Assembly: GCF_002224485.1 (NCBI RefSeq)
Contig: NZ_CP022463.1
Location: forward strand, 1,460,817 to 1,524,816
Direction of reading: 5' to 3'
Length of the DNA stretch: 64,000 bases
From: Sinomonas sp. R1AF57
Lineage (GTDB): Bacteria > Actinomycetota > Actinomycetes > Actinomycetales > Micrococcaceae
The notes below the pieces were generated by a model. It saw only the letters and a program-made list of their open reading frames with translations, ran no database searches and was not told where the DNA came from. Positions 18,759 to 26,477 of this stretch are shown here, one piece after another. Made by a program: the position numbers and the translations under genes. Within the stretch, counting starts at the first letter, position 1, and each line of letters begins with the position of its first letter.

Positions 18759-18821
18759 CAGCACAGCCTTGGCCAGGACAGCCTCCGCAGCGAGAACAGC
18801 CCTCGCTAGAACAGCCCTGGC
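18759..18821 (-). repeat. 15-nt tandem repeat at the 3' end of the M56 gene
   Basis: Read on the minus strand there are four degenerate units of 15, 15, 18 and 15 nt, each carrying (A/G)GGCTGTnCT. The units are plus-strand 18807-18821, 18792-18806, 18774-18791 and 18759-18773. The M56 stop codon (18806-18808) falls at the junction of the first two units, so the array covers the end of the gene and the spacer to parE. Confidence 0.75.
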
Positions 18822-19789
18822 GCGATGAGGAGCGCGGTGGGGACGGCGAGGAGCATCAGGGCCGCGGCGAGGACGACGGCGGTGGCTCCCCTCCCCAGCG
18901 GAGGCCTGGGCGTGAGGAGGCGGCTGAGGCGGGCTGCGATGCCGGCGTCGTCCGGATCTCCCCGGTCGGGGACCAGCCCTGCAGGCGCGGTGCCCCGCGA
19001 GCCGCCGGACTCGCCCGCCACGACGTCCGGGGCGCTCTCCCCGCCGACGGCGACGAGTGCGATCGCGCGCACGAGGACGTCGTCCGGCGTCGAGCGACGC
19101 GCCACGTCGTCGGCCAGCATCTCGACGAGGGAGTTGACGGCCTGCCGTGCGAGCCGGCTCGTGGGCAGCCAGGGGAGCGCCGAGCGCCAGGCCTCGAACG
19201 CCCACAGGAGCAGGTGATGCCGCTGGGTGAGGTGCGCCTTCTCATGGCGCACGACGGCGGCGAGCTCCTCGGGCGCGAGCGCCTCCATGAGGCTGTCCGA
19301 GAGGACGGTCACAGACCTCGAGCCGCCGGGCAAGCAGTAGGCGACCGGTGCGGGATGGTTGATCACCCACGTTCGCTCGAGGGCACCGGAGGGGGAGCTC
19401 AGCAGCGAGAGCAGATCGCGGTGGCGGCGGCGCTGGCTCACGATGCGCGCGTAGGTGAGCAGCAGGGTGAAGAGGAGATGGACCGTCAGGAGGGCGGCCG
19501 CGCTGAGGGCGAAGAGGTGCCAGAAGTGCAGTTCGTCGGCAGACTCATTGCCCAGGACGATGGTGGCCGCGCGGCGCAGGGCCCCGACGAGGGTGCCTCC
19601 GAGGGGCTCGAGTCCGTAGACGAGCATGGCACCGATCATCGACAGCCCACCGGCGAGCGCGATGGCCTGCCAGAGGACCATGGCGGCGAAGGGGGAGCGG
19701 GAGGTCCAGCGCGCGCGGGAGAGCGCCACCGGCACCGGCCACGCGAGCAGCAGTGCCAGCAGCGCCAGCAGGTAGGCGGTCACGAGCAC
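18806..19789 (-). CDS. M56 family membrane metallopeptidase (BlaR1/MecR1-type protease)
   Basis: The 327-residue protein has helices near residues 3-23, 34-60 and 88-115 and a final helix near 305-325. The zinc protease motif HEKAH (182-186) lies in a cytoplasmic segment, with a downstream acidic ligand candidate in LVEMLADDVAR. It lacks the penicillin-binding sensor domain of BlaR1, so it cannot sense beta-lactams in that way and its signal is unknown. Family members cleave a paired BlaI-type repressor. It starts 19 nt after the BlaI-type gene and is surely in its operon. The GTG start has only a weak ribosome binding site, consistent with translational coupling. Confidence 0.88.
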   Translation of the reverse strand: MLVTAYLLALLALLLAWPVPVALSRARWTSRSPFAAMVLWQAIALAGGLSMIGAMLVYGLEPLGGTLVGALRRAATIVLGNESADELHFWHLFALSAAALLTVHLLFTLLLTYARIVSQRRRHRDLLSLLSSPSGALERTWVINHPAPVAYCLPGGSRSVTVLSDSLMEALAPEELAAVVRHEKAHLTQRHHLLLWAFEAWRSALPWLPTSRLARQAVNSLVEMLADDVARRSTPDDVLVRAIALVAVGGESAPDVVAGESGGSRGTAPAGLVPDRGDPDDAGIAARLSRLLTPRPPLGRGATAVVLAAALMLLAVPTALLIAPGLF

Positions 19790-19808
19790 GCGCGTGCCCC
19801 GCTGCGGC

Positions 19809-20171
19809 TCAGCCGCGCGCCAGGAGCCTGCGCAGCGTCGCGGCCTCGGCCTCGGTGACGGAGCCGATGAACCGGGCCAGGACGGCCTCGCGGTCCGGCG
19901 CGGTGCCGAGGGCCTCGTGCATCAGGCGCGCGGTGTGGTCCTCGCGGGTCGAGACGGCGTGGTAGCGGTGGGGACGGGTCCCGCGCTCGCGCTCAACGAG
20001 CCCCTTCTTCTCCAGACGGGACAGCACGGTCAGGACGGTGGTGACGGCCAGGTCCTTGGCCTCCTGCCCGTTCTGTGCCAGACGGTCGCGCAGATCATTG
20101 GCGGTGGCGGCTTCCGGTGCGGACCACAGGAGGTCCATGACCGAGCGCTCGAGTTCACCCAGGCTTGCCAT
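19809..20171 (-). CDS. BlaI/MecI/CopY family transcriptional repressor
   Basis: The 120-residue protein has an N-terminal winged helix-turn-helix (SLGELERSVMDLLWSA, then LAVTTVLTVLSRLEKKGLVERER as recognition helix and wing). A C-terminal dimerisation helix follows, ending EAEAATLRRLLARG. This is the BlaI fold, whose members bind palindromes containing TAC/GTA half-sites and are inactivated by M56 proteases. The ATG at 20171 is preceded by AAAGGA about 11 nt upstream; an in-frame ATG at 20192 is an alternative. Three matching palindromes lie in the divergent region to cydA. One of them contains TAGAAT, a likely -10 for this gene, which suggests autoregulation. Confidence 0.92.
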   Translation of the reverse strand: MASLGELERSVMDLLWSAPEAATANDLRDRLAQNGQEAKDLAVTTVLTVLSRLEKKGLVERERGTRPHRYHAVSTREDHTARLMHEALGTAPDREAVLARFIGSVTEAEAATLRRLLARG

Positions 20172-20247
20172 CGTGTCGAGAGTCCTTTGCATGCACCGGC
20201 ACTGCGCCCGGCTGGCGCGATGCGGGGGGTTCGTATGCCCACGTTCA

Positions 20248-20264
20248 TTCTACGTGAGGTAGAA
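20248..20264. promoter_or_regulatory. Operator 1, TTCTAC-N5-GTAGAA (blaI-like gene side)
   Basis: A perfect inverted repeat, with spacer GTGAG, lies 77 nt upstream of the BlaI-type start. On the minus strand it overlaps TAGAAT (plus-strand 20247-20252), a good -10 hexamer for the repressor gene, so binding would block its own promoter. Confidence 0.75.
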
Positions 20265-20333
20265 CAATTCTGTCGCGCCGTGCCGCGCTGTTCGCTCAGG
20301 GCGTTCACGAGGCCGCCGGGGCGTCCGCAAATG

Positions 20334-20350
20334 TTCTACACTGTGTAGAA
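20334..20350. promoter_or_regulatory. Operator 2, TTCTAC-N5-GTAGAA (cydA side)
   Basis: The perfect inverted repeat TTCTACAC-T-GTGTAGAA extends to 8-bp arms. It is centred 62 nt before the cydA start and 25 bp from operator 3. Confidence 0.8.
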
Positions 20351-20354
20351 GTCA

Positions 20355-20379
20355 GATCTTCTACAGGATGTAGAAGATC
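20355..20379. promoter_or_regulatory. Operator 3, extended TTCTAC-N5-GTAGAA (cydA side)
   Basis: The core at 20359-20375 has spacer AGGAT. The symmetry extends to 10-bp arms (GATCTTCTAC and GTAGAAGATC). It ends 24 nt before the cydA start and must overlap the promoter or the start of the transcript. Confidence 0.82.
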
Positions 20380-20403
20380 CCGCACAAGCAACCGGGAGCA
20401 TGC

Positions 20404-22035
20404 GTGGACGCACTCGAGATAGCACGCTGGCAGTTCGGGATCACCACGGTCTACCACTTCATGATGGTTCCCCTCACCATCGGGCTCGGCCTCGTGGTCG
20501 CCATCCTGCAGACCGTCTGGCACCGCACGGGCAAGGTCGAGTTCCTCAGGATGACCAAGTTCTGGGGGAAGCTCTTCCTCATCAACTTCATCATGGGCGT
20601 GGCCACCGGCATCGTCCAGGAGTTCCAGTTCGGCATGGCCTGGAGCGAGTACAGCCGGTTCGTCGGCGATGTCTTCGGCGCCCCCCTGGCCATGGAGGCC
20701 CTGCTCGCGTTCTTCGTCGAGTCCACCTTCCTGGGCCTGTGGATCTTCGGCTGGAAGCAGCTGCGCCCGGGCCTGCACCTCACGGCGCTGTGGTGTGCCG
20801 TGATCGGCTCGGTCGTCTCCGCCTACTTCATCATCGTGGCCAACAGCTGGATGCAGCACCCGGTCGGCGTCACCGTGGTCGACGGCCGCCCCGTCATGAC
20901 CGACGCATGGGCCGTCTTCACCAACAACACGGCGCTCGTCGCGTTCCCGCACACCGTCATGGGAGCGCTCGGCGTGGCCGGGGCCTTCCTGCTCGGCATC
21001 GCCTGGTACCACCTGTGGCAGCGGCGGCACGACGGAATCGACACGGTCGCCGTCGTGGACGGCACAGCCAAGGAGGGCAAAGCCCGCGGCAAGGAGCGCG
21101 TTGTCGTTGGCGAGGCACCCGGCGTGCCCGGCCGTGACCGCACCGACCACGCCGTGTGGCTGAAGTCCCTGCGGATCGGCGCCGTCGTGGCAATGATCTC
21201 CTTCGCCGGCACAGCCATCACGGGCGACCTCCAGGGCAAGCTCATGTTCGAGCAGCAGCCCATGAAGATGGCCGCTGCCGAGGCCGCGTGCCACGACGGC
21301 ACGGGCTTCTCGATCCTGTCGGTCGGCAACGTCGGCTCGCGCAACTGCGACGACGTCGTGGCCGTCATGGAGGTCCCCGGGCTCCTGTCCTTCCTGGCCA
21401 AGGGCGACTTCACCACCGAGGTGAAGGGCGTCAACACGCTCATCCCCGAGTACGAGCAGGCCTACGGCACGAACCTGCCCGACAACCCCCTGTATGGCGA
21501 CCGCGCCGGCCGCGACGTCCAGTACGTCCCCGTCATGGAGGTCACCTACTGGGGCTTCCGGGCGATGATCGGCTTCGGCGGGCTCGCCGCGGCGGCCGCC
21601 GCCGTCGCCCTCTGGCTGACCCGGAAGGGGACGGTCCCGCAGTCGCGCTGGCTCATGCGGCTCGCCGTCGTCGGGATCCTCGCCCCGTTCGGTGCCAACG
21701 CAGCAGGCTGGATCTTCACCGAGATGGGCCGTCAGCCCTTCGTCGTCGCCCCGAACCCGGCCATGGCCGGAAGCGTGGACCAGGTCTTCATGTTCACGGC
21801 CGCGGCCGTCTCGCCCGGGGTGAGCGCCGGGGAGATCCTGACCTCCCTCATCGTCCTGACGCTCATCTATGCGGCGCTCATGGTGGTCGAGGTCCGCCTC
21901 CTGTGGACCTACACGCGCGGCGGCGTCGCCTCCGCGATGCCTGAGCTCGCCCACGGAGCGGATCACGGGAAGCACGACGACGAGTCCCACCCAGGCGGCA
22001 AGGCCGCCGATGACGTCCTGGCCTTCGCCTACTAG
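20404..22035 (+). CDS. cydA: Cytochrome bd ubiquinol/menaquinol oxidase subunit I
   Basis: This membrane subunit binds haems b558, b595 and d and oxidises quinol with O2 as acceptor. The 543 residues begin with ARWQFGITTVYHFMMVPLTIG, in which His18 is the conserved N-terminal haem ligand. A second conserved His lies in AFPHTVMGALGVAGAF, and the axial Met is in FRAMIGFGG. About nine helices are present, and the quinol loop is of the short type. GTG at 20404 has GGGAG about 6 nt upstream. It is the first gene of cydA-cydB-cydDC and lies downstream of operators 2 and 3; no Rex-like TTGTGN8CACAA is visible. Confidence 0.96.
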   Translation: MDALEIARWQFGITTVYHFMMVPLTIGLGLVVAILQTVWHRTGKVEFLRMTKFWGKLFLINFIMGVATGIVQEFQFGMAWSEYSRFVGDVFGAPLAMEALLAFFVESTFLGLWIFGWKQLRPGLHLTALWCAVIGSVVSAYFIIVANSWMQHPVGVTVVDGRPVMTDAWAVFTNNTALVAFPHTVMGALGVAGAFLLGIAWYHLWQRRHDGIDTVAVVDGTAKEGKARGKERVVVGEAPGVPGRDRTDHAVWLKSLRIGAVVAMISFAGTAITGDLQGKLMFEQQPMKMAAAEAACHDGTGFSILSVGNVGSRNCDDVVAVMEVPGLLSFLAKGDFTTEVKGVNTLIPEYEQAYGTNLPDNPLYGDRAGRDVQYVPVMEVTYWGFRAMIGFGGLAAAAAAVALWLTRKGTVPQSRWLMRLAVVGILAPFGANAAGWIFTEMGRQPFVVAPNPAMAGSVDQVFMFTAAAVSPGVSAGEILTSLIVLTLIYAALMVVEVRLLWTYTRGGVASAMPELAHGADHGKHDDESHPGGKAADDVLAFAY

Positions 22036-22046
22036 GAGCGCACACC

Positions 22047-23105
22047 ATGGAAACCCTTCCCACTGTCTGGTTCTGCGCCGTCGCCGTCCTCTGGGTCGGC
22101 TACCTCTTCCTCGAGGGCTTCGACCTCGGCGTCGGCATGCACATGAAGCTCTTCGCCCGCGGCGAGGCCGAGCGCCGCGTCCTGCTGAACACGATCGGCC
22201 CCGTGTGGGACGGCAACGAGGTGTGGCTCCTCACCGCCGGCGGGGCGACGTTCGCCGCGTTCCCCCTCTGGTACGCCTCCCTGTTCTCGGCGCTCTACCT
22301 CCCCCTGACCCTCGCCCTCGTCGCGCTCATCTTCCGCGCCGTCGCCATCGAGTACCGGGGCAAGGTCCACTCCGACCGCTGGCGCAGCGCCTGGGACTGG
22401 GCGCTCGCCCTCGGTTCCGGCGTCGCCGCGTTCTGCGTCGGTGCGATGCTCGCCCTCACCACCACGGGCCTGCCGCTCAACGCCAACGGCGACCGGGTCG
22501 GAGGCCCCTTCGCCTGGCTCAACGGGTACGCGCTCCTCGGTGGGGCCGCCGTCGTCGGCTTCGCCCTCGTCCACGGCCTCGCGTTCCTCGCCCTCAAGAC
22601 CGACGGCGGGATCCGGGCCAGGGCCCATGCAGCCTTCGTCCGCTGGCTGCCGCTCGCCATCCTGCCTCTCGTGGCGTGGGTCCTCGCTGTCCAGCTCCGC
22701 ACCGGTGAGTGGTGGAGCTGGGCCCTCACGGCCGTCGCGGCGGCAGCGGCGCTCGTCGCCTGGGCGCTCGGCCGGGCCGGGTCGGAGGGTCGTGCCTTCA
22801 TCGCTCTCTCAGCGTTCCTCGCCACTGGCGCAGCGGCCCTCTTCTCCGCGGTGTACCCCGTCGTGCTGCCCTCCACGCTCGACTCGGCCTACAGCCTCAC
22901 GGTGACCAGCGCGTCGTCGTCCGACTACACGCTCGGACTCATGACGGTCGTCGCGCTCATCGGGCTCCCGCTCGTCCTCGCGTACCAGACCTGGACATAC
23001 TGGGTGTTCCGCCGGCGCCTGAGCGTGGGAAGCATCCCCACCGCACATTCGGTCATCCCGGCGACAGTGTCCCGCCTCGTGACCGGCCAGCCGGCCGGGA
23101 AGTAG
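22047..23105 (+). CDS. cydB: Cytochrome bd oxidase subunit II
   Basis: The 352-residue membrane subunit pairs with CydA. The N-terminus, VLWVGYLFLEGFDLGVGMHM, and NTIGPVWDGNEVWLLTAGGATFAAFPLWYA are the conserved CydB blocks, and about eight to nine helices follow. It begins 11 nt after cydA and ends 3 nt before cydDC, so the three form one transcription unit. Confidence 0.96.
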   Translation: METLPTVWFCAVAVLWVGYLFLEGFDLGVGMHMKLFARGEAERRVLLNTIGPVWDGNEVWLLTAGGATFAAFPLWYASLFSALYLPLTLALVALIFRAVAIEYRGKVHSDRWRSAWDWALALGSGVAAFCVGAMLALTTTGLPLNANGDRVGGPFAWLNGYALLGGAAVVGFALVHGLAFLALKTDGGIRARAHAAFVRWLPLAILPLVAWVLAVQLRTGEWWSWALTAVAAAAALVAWALGRAGSEGRAFIALSAFLATGAAALFSAVYPVVLPSTLDSAYSLTVTSASSSDYTLGLMTVVALIGLPLVLAYQTWTYWVFRRRLSVGSIPTAHSVIPATVSRLVTGQPAGK

Positions 23106-23108
23106 CCC

Positions 23109-26100
23109 ATGAAGCCCGACATCCCCCTCGGCCCCGCGACACGGAGGGCCCTCGTCCTCCTCGGCCTCCTCGCGGTGGCCAAGGCCGCAGGCCTGGTGCT
23201 CATGGCCCAGGGGATCGCGGCAGGCCTCGCCGCGATCGCGGCAGGGAGCGCCGGCGGGGCCGGACTCACCGGCGCCACGGGGCTGGCCGCCGCGGGCATC
23301 CTGGTCCGTGCGGCAGCACAGTGGGGAGCTGCAGCGGTGGGCCGCTGGGCCGCTGTCGGGGTCAAGGAGGAGCTCCGCGGTGAGCTCATCGAGGCCGGGC
23401 TCGCCGGCAACGGCGGTGGCGGCGAGCACGACGACGAGGCGCGCGTCGCGTCGTCGGCCGCCGCGACCGCCGTGCTCGCAGGCCGCGGGCTCGACGCCCT
23501 CGACTCGATGTACACCCAGTACCTGCCTGCGGTCGTCCAGAGCGCGGCCGTCCCGCTGCTCCTCGGCGCCCGGATCCTGGGCGCGGACTGGGTGAGCGCG
23601 CTCATCGTCGCCCTGACCCTCCCGCTCGTGCCCCTGTTCATGGTCCTCATCGGACGCCACACCCTGGAGAGGGTCGCCGACGCCCAGCAGTCGCTCCTGC
23701 GCCTCGGCTCGCACCTCGTGGAGCTGGCCCAGGGCCTGCCGGTCCTGGTCGGGCTCGGCCGGGCGGCGCAGCAGCGTCAGGCGCTCGCCGGGCTGTCGTC
23801 TGCCTACAAGGGGCGCACCATGGCCACGCTCAGGGTTGCGTTCCTGTCCGCCATGGCGCTCGAGCTCATCGCAACGATCTCCGTTGCGGTGGTCGCGGTG
23901 TTCATCGGCGTCCGCCTCGTGGACGGCTCCATGCCGCTCGAGGCAGGGCTCGTCGCGCTCATCCTCGCGCCCGAATGCTTCCAGCCCCTGCGCGACCTCG
24001 GCGCCGCCCACCACGCGAGCGAGGACGGGGCCGAGGCGCTGCGCCGCACCCGCGAGCGCATCGCCGCTGCCCGCGGCGCCCGCGTGGTCACCGGCGATCG
24101 CGATGCCGCGGGTGGCTCCCCGGCGGAGATCACCGTCGAGGCACTCGGGGTGAGGTACGACGGCGCCGCGCGCGACGCCGTCGGCCGTGTCTCCTTCACC
24201 GCGCCCGCCGGCGCGGTGACCCTGCTCGCCGGCCCGAGCGGCAGCGGCAAGACGACAGTGCTCGGCGTGATGGCGGGCCTCGTCCGCGACGGCGCGGGCG
24301 CGGCCGTCGCCGGCAGCGTCCGCGGGCCTGGCGCCGAGGGAATCGCGTGGGTCCCGCAGCACCCCCAGTTCACCGAGCCGAGCGTGGCGGCCGAGCTCGG
24401 GCTCTACGCGGGCGAGGCCGCCCGCCGGGACCCGGCACTGCCCGGTCGTCTCCTCGCCGAACTGGGCCTGGCCGGCCTCGCAGACGCCGACCCCGCCGAG
24501 CTCAGTCCCGGCCAGCAGCGCCGGGTGGCGGTGGCGCGGGGACTCGCGCGGGTCGCCGACGGCGCCGACGCGGTCCTGCTCGACGAGCCGACCGCGCACC
24601 TCGACGAGCGGTCCGCCGCGCTCGTCGAGTCGGCTCTGGCGACCCTGAAGGGCCGCGCCACAGTCGTCCTCGTCTCCCACGAGCCGGGCACAGCCGCGCT
24701 CGCCGACCACGTCGTGGAGCTCGCACCATCCGGTGACGCCGCCTCCGAGCGGTTCCGGACGGACATCCCGGACACCGCCGCCCCGGCGCGGCGCTCACCG
24801 GTGCGTGCCAACGCCCCGCGCGCAGCCTGGGTGCGGGTCCTCGCGGGCCTCGTGCGTCCCGATCCCGGCCGGTACGTCCTCGCCGCGCTCGCGGGCCTCG
24901 GGACGGCGGCCGCCGGCGTCGCGCTGTCCGCGCTCTCCGGGTGGCTCATCGTGCGGGCGAGCGAGCAGCCTCCGATCCTGTACCTCCTGACGGCGATCGT
25001 GGGGGTGCGGTTCTTCGGGATCGGCCGCGCCGTGCTGCGGTACTGCGAGCGGCTCGCGCTGCACTCGGCCGTCCTCTCGACGCTGTCACTCCTGCGCGAC
25101 CGGCTCTGGGGCCTCCTGGCCTCCCGTGGCCTCGCGGCGCGGCGGCTCCTCGTCCCCGGTGCGGCGCTCGAGGCCCTCGTCGGGGACGTCGAGGCGGTGA
25201 GGGACCAGCTCCCGCGCGTCCTCCACCCGATCGCCACCGCGGCGCTGGTCGCCCTCGGAGCGCTCGTCGCCGTCGGCGCACTGCTCCCGGGCCACCTGCC
25301 CGTCCTCGCCGCAGGGCTCGCCGTGGCGCTCCTCGTCGCGCCCGCCGTCGCGCTGGTCGTGGACCGTCGCGCAGCCACGCGCGTCCAGACGGGCCGTGCG
25401 CGGTTCCTCGCCAGGATCGGCCAGGCGCTCGCCGCCGCGGGGGACCTGCAGGGCAACGCGCGCTCGGCCACGGTGCTGGCGCGGCTGCGCGCGCAGGACG
25501 CCGGCCTCACCCGGCTCGAGCGCCGCGGCGCCGCGGCTGAGGGGCTGGCGCAGGCCATTGTCATCGCCGCACTGGGGGTCGCGGCCGCCCTCACCCTTGC
25601 AACTGCTCAGGCCGCCGGCGCGCCGGGCACGACGGCGGCGGCCGTCCTCCTGCTGCAGCTTGCCCTCGTGGAGCCCCTCGCCGCCGCGAGCACGGCGGTG
25701 CAGCAGTTCCCCGCCCTCCGGTCCGCGCTCGCGGGCATCGCGGCGGAGCAGGGGTCAGGGCAGGCCGGGTCAGGGCAGGACCGGTCAGAGCAGGGGCCCG
25801 AGCGGACTCCGGGGCGAACGCAGACCAGCGCACCCGACCAAGGCTCCGGCAGTGTGCGGCTCGACGGCGCCACGCTCGGCTGGCCCGGAGGACCGGACAT
25901 CCTCACGGGAGTCGACCTCGAGGCGCACGCGGGGGACTGGGTGGTCGTGGCAGGGCCTTCGGGCAGCGGCAAGTCCACGATGCTCGCGGTCCTCACCGGG
26001 TTCCTGGCTCCGCGCGCAGGGACGGTCCGGATCGAGGGCGCGGCTGCCTGGTGCCCGCAGGAGTCCCACCTGTTCGACTCGACGGTGCGGGGGAACCTTG

Positions 26101-26477
26101 CCGTCGCGCGGGACCGCGACCACGCGCCGTCGGACGCGGAGATCGAGGACGCTCTGGAGCGGGTCGGGCTGCTCGAGCACGTGAGGTCCCTTCCCGGGGG
26201 GCTCGACGCGCGCATCGGCAGCCGGGGCTCGTTCCTCTCGGGCGGCCAGCGTCAGCGGCTCGCGGTGGCGCGGACGCTCCTGGCCGGGGCGCGGGTTGTG
26301 CTCCTCGACGAGCCCACCGCCCACCTCGACCCCGAGTCAGGGCTCGAGCTGGTCGGCGCGCTCCACGAGGCGCTGTCCGACCGGACCGTGATCATGGTCA
26401 GCCATCACGCGACCGAGCTCATGCCCGGCGACCGTCTCGTGCAGCTGGGTGCCGTCCCTCTGGGAGTCACGTCCTGA
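23109..26477 (+). CDS. cydDC: Fused CydDC-type thiol reductant ABC exporter
   Basis: CydDC exports low-molecular-weight thiols and is needed to assemble bd oxidase haem. CydD and CydC are joined here in one 1122-residue chain: TMD1 (about 15-330), NBD1 (about 340-545), TMD2 (about 570-870) and NBD2 (about 905-1115). Both ATP sites look intact: Walker A GPSGSGKTT (about 374) and GPSGSGKST (about 950), signatures LSPGQQRR (about 465) and LSGGQRQR (about 1043), and two VLLDEPTAHLD Walker B motifs. A short Gln/Gly/Ser repeat-like linker precedes NBD2. The natural thiol in this lineage would be cysteine or mycothiol-related compounds (inference). The start lies 3 nt after cydB. Confidence 0.94.
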   Translation: MKPDIPLGPATRRALVLLGLLAVAKAAGLVLMAQGIAAGLAAIAAGSAGGAGLTGATGLAAAGILVRAAAQWGAAAVGRWAAVGVKEELRGELIEAGLAGNGGGGEHDDEARVASSAAATAVLAGRGLDALDSMYTQYLPAVVQSAAVPLLLGARILGADWVSALIVALTLPLVPLFMVLIGRHTLERVADAQQSLLRLGSHLVELAQGLPVLVGLGRAAQQRQALAGLSSAYKGRTMATLRVAFLSAMALELIATISVAVVAVFIGVRLVDGSMPLEAGLVALILAPECFQPLRDLGAAHHASEDGAEALRRTRERIAAARGARVVTGDRDAAGGSPAEITVEALGVRYDGAARDAVGRVSFTAPAGAVTLLAGPSGSGKTTVLGVMAGLVRDGAGAAVAGSVRGPGAEGIAWVPQHPQFTEPSVAAELGLYAGEAARRDPALPGRLLAELGLAGLADADPAELSPGQQRRVAVARGLARVADGADAVLLDEPTAHLDERSAALVESALATLKGRATVVLVSHEPGTAALADHVVELAPSGDAASERFRTDIPDTAAPARRSPVRANAPRAAWVRVLAGLVRPDPGRYVLAALAGLGTAAAGVALSALSGWLIVRASEQPPILYLLTAIVGVRFFGIGRAVLRYCERLALHSAVLSTLSLLRDRLWGLLASRGLAARRLLVPGAALEALVGDVEAVRDQLPRVLHPIATAALVALGALVAVGALLPGHLPVLAAGLAVALLVAPAVALVVDRRAATRVQTGRARFLARIGQALAAAGDLQGNARSATVLARLRAQDAGLTRLERRGAAAEGLAQAIVIAALGVAAALTLATAQAAGAPGTTAAAVLLLQLALVEPLAAASTAVQQFPALRSALAGIAAEQGSGQAGSGQDRSEQGPERTPGRTQTSAPDQGSGSVRLDGATLGWPGGPDILTGVDLEAHAGDWVVVAGPSGSGKSTMLAVLTGFLAPRAGTVRIEGAAAWCPQESHLFDSTVRGNLAVARDRDHAPSDAEIEDALERVGLLEHVRSLPGGLDARIGSRGSFLSGGQRQRLAVARTLLAGARVVLLDEPTAHLDPESGLELVGALHEALSDRTVIMVSHHATELMPGDRLVQLGAVPLGVTS

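Follow-up and report, generated by a model that had tools for sequence, protein, structure and literature searches.

The window analysed here, a 64-kb stretch of a Sinomonas genome (3.94 Mb, single contig), holds a gene for a BlaI-type repressor back to back with the genes for cytochrome bd oxidase, which raises the question of what this repressor and the membrane protease encoded behind it control, and in response to what. We put at roughly 0.8 the probability that the repressor and the protease, which is BlaR1-like and devoid of a sensor domain, control a respiration regulon that includes cydABDC.

The region between blaI and cydA

The minus strand carries blaI (19809..20171), which encodes 120 aa from a conserved ATG, followed downstream by the protease gene (18806..19789; 327 aa), and the plus strand carries cydA for cytochrome bd oxidase subunit I (20404..22035, GTG start; PF01654, 1e-144), cydB for subunit II (22047..23105; TIGR00203, over cut-off), and a fused cydD-cydC gene for an ABC exporter of 1122 aa (23109..26477; TIGR02857 and TIGR02868, both over cut-off). 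The start of blaI was chosen by comparison with relatives; initiation at a more upstream ATG, at 20192, would yield a protein of 127 aa.

The first-pass annotation had reported three perfect TTCTAC-N5-GTAGAA palindromes between the divergent genes, and all three were recovered in place with zero mismatches: predicted operator 1 (TTCTACGTGAGGTAGAA, 20248..20264) on the blaI side, ~75 bp before the blaI start, and predicted operators 2 (TTCTACACTGTGTAGAA, 20334..20350) and 3 (TTCTACAGGATGTAGAA, 20359..20375) on the cydA side, ending 54 and 29 bp before the cydA start, respectively, and set 25 bp apart, start to start. These are the only matches in the window, even when two mismatches are allowed; at that tolerance the shuffled window gave a mean of 0.07 matches, and none of 100 shuffles reached three. 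Operator 1 overlaps TAGAAT, the likely -10 of the blaI-protease operon, as had also been proposed; the hexamer belongs to a promoter-like element on the minus strand (GCGACA-N18-TAGAAT, 20247..20276, read from 20276 to 20247) identified by consensus scan only, with 9 of 12 consensus matches (shuffle mean, 0.0), and is part of the sole such element in 20150-20420. The TAC..GTA-core palindrome that BlaI-family repressors have at their own promoter is present as operator 1, in the sense of a site rather than of binding, and a repressor bound at the three positions would be expected to block transcription.

The absence of a Rex-type site at cydA also held up: no Rex-like palindrome was found near cydA at two or fewer mismatches, nor was a CRP-like palindrome at the same tolerance, both scans having used simplified consensus patterns. 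A Rex-like gene exists in the genome, yet Rex control of cydA was rejected on this count. No structured RNA was matched in Rfam between 18000 and 21000.

Distribution of the predicted operator

Eight perfect sites were found in the source genome, and the reversed pattern was found nowhere. Besides the three described above, they lie 83 bp before the flavohemoglobin gene hmp (between an Rrf2-type gene and hmp), 47 bp before hemQ, 73 bp before a histidine phosphatase - thioredoxin-like - CcdA - ResB operon for cytochrome c maturation (YceI being divergent), before a gene pair for a small membrane protein and glutathione peroxidase, and 38 bp before the gene for another small membrane protein. 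Six more sites carry one mismatch, five of them before genes (copC, frnE, sucC, a SufR-like/ABC pair, and the ATP synthase operon) and the sixth inside a gene. With up to one mismatch there are 14 places genome-wide versus eight for the reversed control; because the control is as frequent, the number of one-mismatch sites proves nothing alone, and it is their placement that serves as evidence. Relatives of copC, frnE, sucC, and the SufR-like/ABC pair carry perfect sites in other genera. The site at the ATP synthase operon, in which the gene for ATP synthase subunit a follows one for a small membrane protein that has no Pfam family and is AtpI-like by position, matches a target of Mycobacterium tuberculosis BlaI, Rv1303-atp, published in PMC12565901 (in excerpt).

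Within the genus, all 15 genomes contained 5-9 perfect sites, and the reversed control was absent from 15/15. Regulon tables were compiled for 11 of these 15 genomes (one, G010, is one site short of its seven), and all 46 site regions examined in them were assigned a target: the phosphatase-ccs operon and a 114-aa membrane protein in 11/11, hmp in eight, hemQ in six, and frnE in four, while the cyd cluster is known in 7/11 as three clustered sites in the genome site listing. Beyond the genus, 20 genomes chosen from 20 other genera contained 2-15 perfect sites each (reversed control, 0-2), and 75 of their 81 site regions were assigned, including blaI (18), cydA (17), hemQ (13), hmp (8), and the 114-aa membrane protein (6), with the blaI sites of G017 and G025 left out of the table. 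No beta-lactamase gene was among the targets assigned in the Sinomonas or other-genera regions.

Assignment of a target required a reference relative whose estimated start lay -60 to 400 bp from the site. Among the six regions without an assigned target, a gene in promoter orientation lies 74-135 bp from the site in three (L158, L177, and L173) and 306 bp from it in one (L160); none was seen in L171 and L108. Targets found in a single genome (SucC, HemE, ICL, CopD, SURF1, SdhC, CtaC, CtaB, QcrC, trHb, and ABC) are mostly self-assignments, because the reference set drew in part on these very loci; most were identified by Pfam, and trHb by reading of the sequence. SdhC lies 243 bp from its site, with a divergent gene nearer, and in some divergent pairs, such as that at L168, a gene other than the assigned target is likewise nearer to the site. 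The 15 sites of G025, a small genome, have targets that include cytochrome oxidase subunit II, SURF1, a UbiA-family prenyltransferase (CtaB-like), succinate dehydrogenase, isocitrate lyase, CopC, CopD, and a ResA-like protein. The 114-aa membrane protein (3606-3950 of L009, and homologues), with its operator in 11/11 Sinomonas and 6/20 other genomes, has no convincing Pfam family and may be a small respiratory accessory protein.

At orthologous cyd loci the operators are conserved. Exactly three perfect sites and a divergent cydA were present in 77 of 80 named blaI loci (the best 80 of 402 relatives), and the remaining three kept one site at blaI; within this set, Sinomonas accounts for the eleven closest BlaI relatives, and Arthrobacter, Paenarthrobacter, and Pseudarthrobacter come next. 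Alignment of 76 intergenic regions, drawn from the 77 loci selected for three perfect sites (one fell outside the script coordinates), gave a conservation of 99.96% for the arms, 76% for the spacers, and 60% for the rest, and the cydA-side pair was spaced 23-26 bp. Each of the 30 blaI loci that scored best in the family search likewise has a perfect site, with cydA adjoining in 25. Both genes retain sites where they are not adjacent: in L276 the cydA start is ~3.8 kb from blaI, with two sites at cydA and one at blaI, and in G018 blaI (L040) and cydA (L147) lie inside different contigs, both with sites.

Across the order (297 genomes), a perfect site was present in 49 of 53 genomes with a BlaI orthologue versus 7 of 244 without, a co-occurrence that is inflated overall by relatedness, though the pattern holds separately inside families f1 (20/20 versus 1/4), f19 (12/13 versus 0/9), and f6 (17/19 versus 0/4). 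These counts were compiled by hand from match listings, with an orthologue threshold of ~129 bits that was chosen once the scores had shown a gap down to 112 bits. The orthologue-bearing genomes without a perfect site are G077, G238, G308, and G319; a site was found in 4 of 72 further genomes with weaker BlaI matches. Twelve genomes of the family were picked for a missing or diverged BlaI, and six of them had sites; seven of the twelve had no BlaI match, six of these with 0 sites and one with 1. Two genomes of genus g11 (L334 and L335) keep a cydA site, and these count against the simplest reading because only a distant BlaI (~53 bits) exists there.

Local arrangements also vary among families. 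In f6 two operators abut exactly at cydA/blaI (17 bp start to start; L100, L189, and L198), compared with 23-26 bp in Micrococcaceae, and several operators in the same family precede universal stress protein genes (L102, L183, L190, L191, and L197). In f19 two very different CydA types (~41-44% or 71-72% identity) occupy one and the same position beside blaI, both with operators (L284, L285, L324, L326, L329, and L331 versus L286 and L327).

Ten genomes represent three further families of the class; nine of their ten blaI promoters show, as judged by eye, a palindrome of related form (TAC[GT]AC-N5-GTAGTA or close), the exception being G632. In all ten, TACTAC-N5-GTAGTA was matched at 11 or 12 of 12 positions 13-61 bp before the best cydA, and the best of 1,100 shuffles, which preserved base composition only, reached 10 matches. 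Nine of these genomes have blaI and this cydA widely separated or on separate contigs; in G561 they are neighbours sharing the site. Perfect TACTAC sites occur only at cydA in four genomes, elsewhere in three, and nowhere in three; because their genome-wide number (10 places) barely exceeds that of the reversed control (6), only their placement counts. A second cydA-like gene in G551, forming an eleventh locus, had only 7 matches; there (L296 and L348), blaI, the protease gene, and this second gene share one strand, and the latter has no site of its own.

The repressor and its companion protease

The repressor matched the Penicillinase_R domain (PF03965, 5e-22) at 78.8 bits against a cut-off of 22.6, whereas its match to NCBIfam CopY_TcrY was weak (30 bits; cut-off, 122). 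Its closest solved relative is 2g9w (E 4e-27, profile A1), an entry labelled conserved hypothetical protein, which we take to be M. tuberculosis BlaI. Staphylococcus aureus BlaI is cleaved by BlaR1 before a conserved Phe, between N101 and F102 (PMC9834060, in excerpt), and near that place a Phe is invariant in 16/16 aligned repressors, the equivalence being by position only.

The protease has four membrane helices, the motif HEKAH at 182-186, and a single cysteine, C152, which the protease domain carries immediately ahead of its zinc-binding helix; HExxH...E falls between helices 3 and 4, which is the layout of the BlaR1 family. Its initial description as an M56 protease needs correcting, since Pfam gave no match to Peptidase_M56 and only PF01435 (Peptidase_M48) at E up to 0.001, although among known folds the predicted one most resembles S. 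aureus BlaR1 in its membrane and protease part. Identification by sequence alone was abandoned, as a single-sequence search of solved structures returned chance matches only; a profile search ranked M48-type proteases first and BlaR1 at E 0.76. The likeness to BlaR1 is thus drawn from predicted fold and motif, because the sequence searches did not name the protease. Only about five residues follow the last membrane helix, which bears out the earlier claim that the protein has no penicillin-sensing domain; for this reason it is not classed as a BlaR1 beta-lactam receptor, and a beta-lactam was rejected as the signal. A protease relative is present in 80/80 named blaI loci (the best 80 of 402 relatives), with its start ~370-450 bp after that of blaI in loci of the family. 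In the protease alignment (150 rows, 140 of them distinct as some genes are in twice, with three short fragments dropped beforehand), HExxH was kept in 150/150 sequences, and the single cysteine was near-invariant.

Proposed control of respiration and relation to known systems

In the reading we favour, the BlaI-type protein, probably as a dimer, would bind TTCTAC-N5-GTAGAA and repress its own operon via operator 1 and cydABDC via operators 2 and 3, and elsewhere in the genome it would repress hemQ (heme), cytochrome c maturation, and hmp (NO detoxification); through the one-mismatch sites, repression may extend to copC (copper handling), ATP synthase, and others. Respiratory stress read by the protease would activate it, whereupon BlaI would be inactivated and the regulon derepressed; candidate signals are NO, redox imbalance, a lack of copper or of oxygen, and a block of the main oxidase. 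Comparison of sequences supports the predicted operators, their conservation, the target set, and the tie to the BlaI orthologue; from these we infer binding by BlaI, inactivation of BlaI by the protease, and the kind of signal, as well as repression over activation, since operators alone are compatible with either. The direct link to cyd, which the first-pass annotation had offered as its own deduction, is supported by the conserved operators, but the target is a wider respiration regulon rather than cyd alone, and the link has a precedent in print (PMC5473688, in excerpt, citing Sala et al., 2009). A further reading, which we hold tentatively and with more doubt than conviction, is that respiration control is ancestral in the actinobacterial BlaI-protease lineage, with beta-lactamase control in mycobacteria as a side branch and the protease cysteine as a stress switch. 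The near-invariant cysteine would then respond to NO, redox state, or copper as a thiol- or zinc-based switch, and the choice of oxidases that the cell makes, like its output of heme and cytochrome c, would follow from protease activity.

The palindromes might instead belong to another transcription factor, such as an Rrf2-type regulator by hmp or some other respiration regulator, with blaI merely one of its targets. The site between the Rrf2-type gene and hmp, the two genomes whose cydA retains a site although their BlaI match is distant, and the Rex-like gene would all suit such a factor. However, no target is more consistent than blaI and cydA, and the blaI promoter retains a site where cydA lies at another place; in three families, genomes that lack the orthologue have few sites or none; in other families, the same altered form of the site appears at both blaI and cydA; and cydA has no Rex-like palindrome. 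All of this makes the explanation highly unlikely. That the palindromes are not operators at all, being conserved for some other reason or by chance, is barely credible: the predicted operators are known here from sequence alone, but 0.07 matches were expected in the window, the reversed control was absent from all 15 Sinomonas genomes, and conservation reaches other families in which the genes are unlinked.

Other explanations leave the operators to BlaI and differ on what releases it. BlaI-family repressors can be ligand-controlled, as in the case of CopY, and the repressor could itself sense the signal or be released on binding heme, a metal, or some other ligand, which would leave the protease only to tune BlaI turnover; several targets handle heme or copper, and the weak CopY_TcrY match points the same way. 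Set against the protease relative that accompanies blaI in every one of the 80 loci and the HExxH kept throughout the alignment, we consider this unlikely. An ordinary beta-lactam or cell-wall stress switch, to which the respiration genes respond secondarily, would recall M. tuberculosis BlaI, which also represses blaC (PMC5473688 and PMC8265638, both in excerpt), but is very improbable for a protease that ends just after its last membrane helix and an assigned target set that includes no beta-lactamase.

Mycobacterial BlaR also has no sensor domain, and how M. tuberculosis responds to beta-lactams thus remains unknown (PMC5473688, in excerpt). The same excerpt, citing Sala et al. (2009), has M. 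tuberculosis BlaI binding the blaC, ATP synthase, and cytochrome bd promoters; gel-shift binding and repression by BlaI at Rv1303, ahead of the atp genes, are described in the excerpted part of PMC12565901. Elsewhere, atpH and sigC are listed as members of the BlaI regulon (PMC8265638, in excerpt), and SigC is tied to copper, a sigC mutant in copper-poor medium having higher cyd and atp expression (PMC7924339, in excerpt). The present system resembles M. tuberculosis BlaI/BlaR (Rv1846c/Rv1845c) in the closest solved relative of the repressor, in the sensor-less BlaR, and in its cyd and atp targets (perfect sites at cydA and a one-mismatch site at atp), whereas it differs in that Sinomonas blaI is divergent from cydA with three operators, that no beta-lactamase target was found, and that the regulon spans heme, cytochrome c, copper, NO, and carbon genes.

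A link between BlaI and respiration is therefore already in print for one organism, M. tuberculosis; what the present analysis adds is the operator, the arrangement of three sites at cyd, the breadth of the regulon in Micrococcaceae, and the cysteine, which were not found in the open-access literature searched. Among the matches listed in that search, none reported that BlaI controls cyd in Micrococcales, and PMC10581053 matched BlaI solely by way of blaIII. The loci point to respiration as the process regulated through sensor-less BlaR proteins, offer an exact operator, a target list, and one candidate sensing residue for testing, and would warn that a BlaI annotation need not mean beta-lactam resistance.

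With BlaI/BlaR1 and MecI/MecR1 of S. aureus, the system shares a winged-helix repressor and, by the predicted model, a matching membrane zinc protease. The staphylococcal BlaI/MecI operator is likewise a TAC..GTA-type palindrome at its own operon with N4 between TAC and GTA; in Sinomonas, by contrast, the spacing is N5, the penicillin-binding sensor domain is absent, and the targets differ. The Bacillus subtilis ResD-ResE regulon includes cytochrome c maturation, oxidase assembly, and flavohemoglobin, and the likeness of this similar target set is one of function only, as ResD-ResE is a two-component phosphorelay, whereas no kinase or response regulator is present at the Sinomonas locus. The arms also differ within the class, being TTCTAC here and TACTAC at cydA of family f22 genomes, a comparison made with these genomes rather than with the M. 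tuberculosis operator itself. In two genomes of f22 (L355 and L361), a perfect TACTAC-N5-GTAGTA site additionally precedes the gene for a DUF4383 membrane protein.
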